A DNA stretch of 22,103 bases from Baffinella frigidus (Eukaryota; Cryptophyceae; Cryptomonadales; Baffinellaceae). Shown one piece after another: positions 330 to 18,842 of this stretch. The translations under genes were made by a program, and so were the position numbers. The notes beneath the pieces were generated by a model, which was not told the origin of the DNA, searched no databases, and was given only the letters and a program-made list of their open reading frames with translations. The stretch is taken from NCBI GenBank assembly GCA_026770585.1, contig MU647263.1, positions 40,767 to 62,869 on the forward strand, given 5' to 3'. Numbering within the stretch: the first letter of the stretch is position 1; each line of letters opens with the position of its first letter.

Positions 330-475
330 GCGCCGCTCCACTACTGTCAATTTATGTCAAACGTCATTTTTGTGCGTCGATAGGCTTATACGCTCTTCAA
401 AAATACATCATATGGACACGCGCATCCTCCTGTGGCGCAAACCTGATTGGAATGAGAGCGTTGACGTGCAACATG
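330..475 (+). pseudogene. ghost copy of exon 1, interrupted
   Basis: CAG plus GCGCCGCTCCACTAC (330-344) matches the exon 1 start. After about 69 unrelated bases, 414-475 resumes with GACACGCGCATCCTCCTGTG and the following codons. Changes (GATTGG for GATGGG) and the insertion make it non-functional. Confidence 0.7.

Positions 476-18842: not shown

Follow-up and report, generated by a model that had tools for sequence, protein, structure and literature searches.

Truncated copies of exons lie in the flanking introns of 13 of the 22 exons of a gene of Baffinella frigidus. The whole stretch of DNA that was analysed, referred to here as the window, comprises 22,103 nt (positions 40,767 to 62,869 of MU647263.1), and comparison of the 22 exons with it by blastn (E<=1e-3, self matches excluded) yielded 24 copies. 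Each of them is on the same strand as its parent exon and in an intron flanking that exon, at a distance of 51 to 1300 nt. A first-pass annotation had described truncated exon copies in flanking introns, always in the same orientation and often including the donor or acceptor, and had seen in them a local duplication acting across the whole gene; these observations are borne out by the analysis. The copies are a confirmed, non-chance feature and are present in two genes. On balance, they are probably the remains of recurrent, short-range tandem duplications that crossed exon boundaries, with exchange between diverged alleles or paralogues.

Gene structure and exon copies in two genes

The assembly contains 382,457,362 bases in 1364 contigs, and the window is flanked in it by runs of N: the 20 kb fetched upstream are N up to the first base of the window, and the run of N downstream measures about 5.2 kb. 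The window opens with a TA run and closes in a tandem repeat, which suggests that the bordering N runs are assembly gaps. The gene model comprises 22 exons (X1 to X22) on the plus strand, from about 44 to 18842, with mostly consistent phases, the boundaries of X14 and the start of X1, which is cut by the contig edge, being uncertain. The interval originally assigned to the feature, 330 to 18368, should extend as far as the stop codon of X22, at about 18842. Most exons are represented in a 554-aa translation, from which X1 was omitted and in which the X14 and X15 junctions are provisional and a short stretch before X20 is wrong; it shows 42% identity to the homologue P0001 over 97% of the query (E 2e-132). 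P0001, a protein of 835 aa from a JGI metagenome contig, was the sole homologue among the 8000 scored candidates sharing most words in a database of 5.8 billion proteins. Using P0001 as a tblastn query on the window, many exons were matched in order, and several copies were matched independently, some of them weakly. The spliced model gave only a sub-threshold Prominin match in Pfam (E 0.028, 13 bits against a cut-off of 34.3), and P0001 gave none at E 0.01. No relatives were found in IMG/VR by tblastn, and no Rfam match was obtained for the window at gathering thresholds. The donors of X4, X5, X6, X9 and X13 deviate strongly from the usual consensus (GTCCGC, GTGGTG, GTCCGT, GC and GTCTTT, respectively). 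Downstream of the gene, an ankyrin-repeat reading frame occupies 20103-21068 on the minus strand (Pfam Ank_2, E 2e-59), with a direct duplicate pair near its start (20969-21044 and 21151-21225, 84%).

When hand-chosen seeds are used, 28 copies are obtained for 14 exons, and many of them extend into the intron, by up to about 150 nt (Table 1). The presence of copies therefore stands, but the figure of 15 of 22 exons given earlier becomes 13 at the threshold or 14 with manual seeds, the exon numbering also being different. Two controls returned practically nothing: exons searched against 100 dinucleotide-preserving shuffles of the concatenated introns gave a mean of 0.01 matches (maximum 1), and exons of either gene searched against the introns of the other, in both directions, gave none. 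Identity between copy and exon ranges from 73% to 100%. The earlier description of the process as ongoing needs qualification: this spread suggests many ages, but the silent excess described below means that the differences are no simple clock. Of the copies in the two genes, 28 come within 3 nt of the exon end that is expected on their side; the parent's splice dinucleotide is retained in 24 of these, and intron identity beyond the splice site is 61% over the next 10 bases and 47% over 30 bases, ungapped. The behavior of the flanks is mixed: the X5 copy continues for 62 nt into near-identical intron, whereas the upstream copy of X10 and those of e8 in the second gene (on both sides) lose similarity immediately. 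These two classes fit a mixture of partners or of ages.

Exon copying is no peculiarity of the window locus. Of 15 stretches sampled at arbitrary places of the genome, five contain sequence (L017, L023, L024, L026 and L027) and the rest are all N. L017 holds a WD40-type gene on the minus strand (PF00400 over its cut-off) with 15 exons (e1 to e15). Its homologue P0002, with 62% identity over 34% of the query, supports e1-e6 (tblastn E 3e-8 to 0.04); e7-e15 were delimited from reading frames and splice sites, e7 having in addition a short match seen by eye, and the 3' end of e15 is undefined. In this gene, 7 of the 15 exons have copies, 12 in total (E<=1e-2), all on the same strand as the exon and all in flanking introns. 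The feature is not universal in the genome, occurring in two of the few genes examined but not in all, because two beta-tubulin loci (L010 and L011) showed no local direct repeats under the same filter. Some local direct and inverted repeats are present in L023 and L024, and no local direct repeats were found in L026 and L027 by this filter. The latter two contain long frames with integrase and reverse-transcriptase-like stretches and are retrotransposon-like; we take these frames to resemble Ty1/copia retrotransposons. The C-terminus of P0002 reads like a translated heptamer-type intron, and to judge from this sequence a relative may share introns of that type.

Table 1. Exons of the gene and their copies (window positions)
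Feature	Position	Strand	Basis and remarks
Exon X1	44..108	+	5' edge uncertain (contig edge); P0001 residues 249-276 by tblastn, weak, E 0.4; no copy found
Exon X2	633..721	+	P0001 tblastn, phases
X2 copy, upstream, exon nt 16-72	415..472	+	blastn 86%, E 1e-12
X2 copy, downstream, 3' end + donor + intron head	804..851	+	96% in exon part
Exon X3	952..1090	+	P0001 tblastn
X3 copy, 3' end + donor + intron head	1250..1335	+	Hand-seeded; outside threshold set
Exon X4	2016..2093	+	Phases, P0001 homology
X4 copy, 5' part + acceptor	1788..1885	+	93% in exon part
X4 older copy; gapped alignment passes acceptor into intron	1711..1748	+	82%
X4 further copy end	1561..1640	+	Exon/intron junction as in copy 1788-1885; 84% to 1861-1940, i.e. 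a copy itself duplicated
Exon X5	2389..2450	+	Phases, P0001 homology
X5 copy, 3' part + donor + 62 nt intron	2716..2810	+	94% over 95 nt
Exon X6	3395..3442	+	Phase; no copy found
Exon X7	3686..3764	+	Phases, P0001 homology
X7 copy, 3' part	3909..3945	+	84%
X7 second copy	4695..4727	+	86 nt non-exonic left flank common to first copy; pair 3823-3937 / 4620-4728, 76%; outside threshold set
Exon X8	4881..4949	+	Phase; no copy found
Exon X9, apparent GC donor	5456..5587	+	68% to P0001, E 2e-15
X9 copy, upstream, nt 23-72	5119..5168	+	82%
X9 copy, 5' part + acceptor	5262..5338	+	81% in exon part
X9 copy, 3' part + donor + intron	5874..6118	+	88% in exon part
X9 copy, downstream, nt 88-128	6887..6927	+	78%
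Exon X10	7609..7740	+	P0001 tblastn; whole-genome search
X10 copy, 5' part + CAG	7423..7478	+	96%
X10 middle unit of 104-nt tandem repeat, 3' part + donor + intron	7803..7906	+	TRF 7723-7926; outside threshold set
X10 copy, 3' part + donor	7907..7973	+	89%
Exon X11	8278..8319	+	P0001 homology; no copy found
Exon X12	8991..9084	+	P0001 tblastn
X12 copy, 5' part + acceptor, tandem unit 86 nt	8872..8940	+	94% in exon part; TRF
Exon X13	9676..9797	+	P0001 tblastn
X13 copy, 5' end + acceptor + heptamer-type intron tail	9162..9293	+	blastn, hand-seeded
X13 short copy, 5' end + acceptor	9308..9361	+	Hand-seeded; outside threshold set
X13 copy, 5' part + acceptor + intron, complete tandem duplication, period 170, gapless	9393..9563	+	93% in exon part
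X13 copy, 3' part + donor region	10071..10143	+	95%
X13 copy, nt 14-122 + donor	10228..10352	+	86%
Exon X14, boundaries uncertain	10596..10640	+	Phase; no copy found
Exon X15	11400..11446	+	P0001 tblastn; no copy found
Exon X16	12112..12162	+	P0001 tblastn; no copy at threshold
Exon X17	12483..12546	+	Phases
X17 copy, 3' part + donor	12812..12863	+	79% in exon part
X17 copy, nt 25-54	13061..13090	+	90%
Exon X18	13552..13618	+	Phases
X18 copy, 3' part + donor	13697..13767	+	93% in exon part; 3' extension hand-seeded
Exon X19	15583..15643	+	Phases, P0001 tblastn
X19 copy, 5' part + acceptor + 69 nt intron	15043..15160	+	98% in exon part; intron pair 14748/15236 at similar offset
Exon X20	16895..17006	+	P0001 tblastn
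X20 copy, nt 34-80	16097..16143	+	87%
X20 copy, 5' part + acceptor + intron tail	16590..16719	+	95% in exon part
Exon X21	17947..18002	+	Phases; weak in P0001 tblastn
X21 copy, 5' part + acceptor	17794..17859	+	93% in exon part
X21 copy, 3' part + donor + heptamer-type intron head	18349..18495	+	Hand-seeded; outside threshold set
Exon X22 with stop codon	18780..18842	+	Translation; no copy found

Polarity of the copies and duplication within introns

The part of the exon contained in a copy depends on the side on which the copy lies. This was assessed for 38 exon/copy pairs from both genes (E<=1e-2), which are not independent, as some exons contribute up to four. Copies upstream of the exon contain only its 5' end in 13 cases and only its 3' end in one (e15, whose 3' end is undefined), while downstream copies contain only the 3' end in 14 cases and only the 5' end in none. 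Nine copies include neither end of the exon and one, again of e15, includes both. Consequently, of the 28 copies that include one end of the exon and not the other, 27 obey the rule that an upstream copy carries the 5' part and a downstream copy the 3' part. This is the necessary outcome when one splice site lies within the tandemly duplicated unit: the exon is left whole, and a partial copy arises on the side of the boundary that was crossed. Random pasting of exon fragments would not give it.

Tandem units are preserved to different degrees. TRF reports a period of 86 nt at X12 and of 104 nt at X10, and the pair at X13, with a period of 170 nt, is the sole gapless one among the 28 hand-seeded pairs. 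The unmatched DNA between the copies amounts to 14-76 nt for X12, X18, X21, X2 (downstream) and X20 (nearer copy) and to more in the other 22; it exceeds 60 nt, reaching up to 1303, in 23 of the 28 pairs and consists partly of dispersed inverted-repeat elements. It is provisionally attributed to decay and element insertion. Copies tend to lie nearer to their own exon than to the other flanking exon (18 of 24 in the window, 11 of 12 in the second gene). Intron gain by tandem AGGT duplication was also considered and rejected, since exon-like sequence does not abut the far end of the intron and the nearest copy is 126 nt from the far exon.

The initial impression that the copies derive almost exclusively from exons proved to be wrong, as intron sequence is duplicated locally too, which speaks against exon-specific targeting. 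Both genes were cut into 60-nt tiles, and intron tiles of simple sequence or overlapping known copies were set aside. A local copy on the same strand was found for 22 of 41 exon tiles and for 50 of the 190 remaining intron tiles; without tiles having inverted or distant copies, the numbers are 21 of 41 and 39 of 190. Among the tiles set aside, a copy was found for 50 of the 69 overlapping known copies and for 13 of the 120 of simple sequence. Local inverted copies, taken to be mainly hairpin elements, were seen for 32 of the 190 intron tiles and for none of the 41 exon tiles. If the exon parent stays constant whereas an intron pair changes on both sides, a factor of about two between exons and introns is expected. 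Duplication thus appears to be a general process, with exons merely the parents that are still recognizable. Some of the duplicated intron tiles may belong to units that cross an exon, in which case the true intron rate is lower and not independent; this possible overlap weakens the rejection of exon-specific targeting.

Degenerate heptamer arrays of the CCCTAAA type crowd the introns and often extend up to the splice sites (for example 3449-3683, 4960-5107, 11458-11615 and 18006-18148). CCCTAAA is similarly dense in L017, in L007 (after the end of the window) and in L012, so it is widespread in the genome. Dispersed inverted-repeat (MITE-like) elements are present in both orientations at 120-311, 6150-6890, 17420-17590, 16176-16301 and 18235-18338; they sit in introns and downstream of the gene, and the listed pairs are all clear of exons. 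The sequence preceding the acceptors of X11 (8277), X14 (10595) and e8 in L017 resembles the end of a dispersed element, and it looks as if elements supply these three acceptors.

Silent differences and the origin of the copies

Differences between exons and copies are concentrated at silent positions. Over the 38 pairs, mismatches at the three codon positions number 41:34:127, with 4 gap columns. The figures for fourfold sites, codons and simulations refer to the ungapped pairs only (35 pairs, 518 codons). In these, 93 codons differ silently and 66 with a change of amino acid, two of the latter being a stop in the copy, and 80 of 277 fourfold sites differ. Third-position G+C changes run both ways (47 strong to weak, 36 weak to strong), which is unlike one-way decay. 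A neutral copy evolving beside a constrained exon was simulated, the amount of change being set, for each of the 35 pairs, by its differences at first and second positions. The simulation yields 53-65 third-position differences, while 115 are observed, about twice as many. The simulated third-position share is 0.44-0.52 and never exceeds 0.588 in 180 runs, compared to the observed 0.646, which is not reached even when a fourfold GC>AT bias is applied. The copies are therefore, on average, not neutral offspring of the adjoining exon, because the third-position share exceeds that of every simulation run. The share is 0.58-0.77 in all four identity classes of 34 of the 38 pairs (those left out are two pairs of e15 and the 19-nt pairs of X18 and X20).

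The part missing from the simulation corresponds to about 10-12% of third positions and resembles the divergence of the two beta-tubulin copies, which show 47 third-position differences in 416 codons and differences at 45 of 214 fourfold sites with no amino-acid change. Between the aligned beta-tubulin exons, stretches of 111 and 342 nt are unaligned, and the contig of one of the two copies ends at the locus. Diverged copies with unalignable introns, whether alleles or paralogues, do exist in this genome. Changes in the exon itself were considered as an explanation for all of the differences and rejected: in 14 pairs of overlapping copies, the less diverged member has 28 differences, 10 of which recur in the other, and by codon position the ghost-private changes number 18:15:40 and the exon-private ones 1:0:9. 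On these data, serial copying of an exon that kept changing is not distinguished from copying of several source alleles, and ghost-private differences can also come from exon change between two duplications.

In the favored explanation, which combines polarity with the silent excess, the duplicated segments would each have one end in an intron and the other inside an exon. What remains after such an event would be one complete exon, so that the event is tolerated, together with a truncated exon end and its splice site alongside. The process would run along whole genes, introns included, and exon parts would stand out because the parent exon is conserved. Unequal exchange would be the route, and exchange or later recombination would join copies from diverged alleles or paralogues, so that a copy, itself presumably neutral, would often not be the offspring of the adjoining exon. 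Such partners are suggested by the excess of silent differences. Against them, the intron parts of X5 and X10 are more alike than the exon parts, which plain exchange between alleles does not predict, and a whole-genome search with one exon (X10) matched only the window locus and revealed no diverged partner. The unmatched DNA within most pairs, the beta-tubulin loci devoid of local direct repeats and the intron-tile rate, which is not independent of the exon copies, also count against the favored explanation. A broader version of this scheme, regarded as rather doubtful, assumes that introns of different alleles or paralogues diverge so fast that exons are the sole homology left; exons would then seed unequal exchange between the diverged copies and introns would archive truncated exon ends of other alleles in many genes, possibly with feedback by gene conversion.

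The copies could also be an effect of assembly, if contigs of at least two diverged haplotypes had been interleaved so that exon pieces of the other haplotype came to lie beside each exon. False duplications of adjacent haplotype contigs are documented (PMC2864568 and PMC9516828). The silent, coding-like divergence matches what another haplotype would show, contig ends broken inside exons would also produce the polarity, and the assembly is mostly N where sampled (10 of 15 stretches). However, the window is free of N and would require a false join at each of 28 copies. An exact run of at least 21 nt is present at only 2 of 38 truncated ends and one of at least 31 nt in 3 of 38 pairs; with so few long exact runs, short-read graph collapse inside exons is not expected, and a shared-k-mer signature is missing. 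Moreover, X4, X9 and X13 exist in more than two versions, and some junctions, at X4 and X7, were duplicated and then diverged, for which reason they look like inherited DNA. Mis-assembly is thus considered unlikely.

Simple tandem duplication of the adjoining exon end, leaving a neutral copy without any diverged partner, requires the fewest assumptions and accounts for where the copies lie, how they are oriented and which exon end they carry. It also agrees with some close pairs, X19 and X18 among them, that have no third-position excess of their own. The silent excess would then have to be an unmodelled mutation pattern, and the gap between observed and simulated third positions described above makes this quite unlikely.

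The coding-like character of the copies would follow if they functioned, now or once, as alternative exon ends or as donor cassettes for gene conversion. The steady third-position share across identity classes, the conserved splice dinucleotides (24 of 28) and the scarcity of gaps (4 columns in 38 alignments) point in this direction, but the copies are truncated and unusable alone as internal exons, and two in-frame stops occur in 518 codons, which makes a function highly improbable.

Scarcely credible is the insertion of mobile or repair-patch DNA into exons, or the copying between heptamer arrays proposed in the first-pass annotation: in several exons the head and tail copies seem to complement each other, and inverted-repeat elements lie near some copies, but the complementarity is not significant (p 0.06 under a uniform null, 0.24 when permuted; 9 exons entered by hand), polarity holds in all but one of the testable copies, and at 13 of 38 truncated ends a heptamer-like 6-mer is no more than 25 nt away, which is no enrichment over the 33% of background intron windows (1574 of 4771).

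Provided that the copies are real, each gene holds dozens of records of small duplications crossing splice sites, with which some intron gains and exon duplications are believed to begin. The silent excess would also allow duplication between diverged homologues to be tested against duplication between sister copies. If they are an assembly effect, they are a warning that gapless contigs could mix haplotypes at the scale of exons and mislead gene prediction.

Comparison with known systems

In a potato RdRp gene, an intron was made by a tandem duplication crossing an intron-exon boundary (PMC4974935). As in the present genes, duplication affected an exon end and adjoining intron, with one splice site inside the unit. 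However, the potato copy became a new intron and exon, whereas the copies in the window are truncated, lie in introns, are presumably skipped and number dozens in two genes. In an analysis of 20 eukaryote genomes with Exonize, partial, inter-boundary and intronic duplications affected more genes than full ones (PMC12343006). The degenerate, partial and intronic classes of that work are likewise exon-derived copies in introns of their own gene; the present case appears to be set apart by copies at about half of the exons (13 of 22 and 7 of 15), sometimes several per exon, and by the silent excess.

Tandem exon duplication that gives rise to mutually exclusive exons also involves an exon and part of the adjacent intron (PMC6071210). 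Those exons are complete and used alternatively, while the copies described here are truncated, the most nearly complete being X13 nt 14-122. Haplotype mis-assembly (PMC2864568) resembles the present case in its adjacent near-copies with haplotype-like divergence. That example concerns a whole 7-kb contig overlapping its neighbor, unlike copies of 20-250 nt in gapless sequence, and in the window no N marks an assembly gap next to a copy, while identical stretches of at least 21 nt are rare at the truncated ends of both genes (2 of 38). With regard to introners and MITEs carrying splice sites, dispersed inverted-repeat elements do occur in the introns.

The first-pass annotation knew of no described system exactly like this one. 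That statement needs to be narrowed, since partial, intronic and boundary-crossing duplications are known; judged by title or opening abstract, none of the matches listed, which mostly exclude the subscription literature, describes truncated copies beside half of the exons of a gene. Partial and boundary-crossing exon duplications are thus known phenomena, and it is the density of the copies and their silent excess that look unusual.
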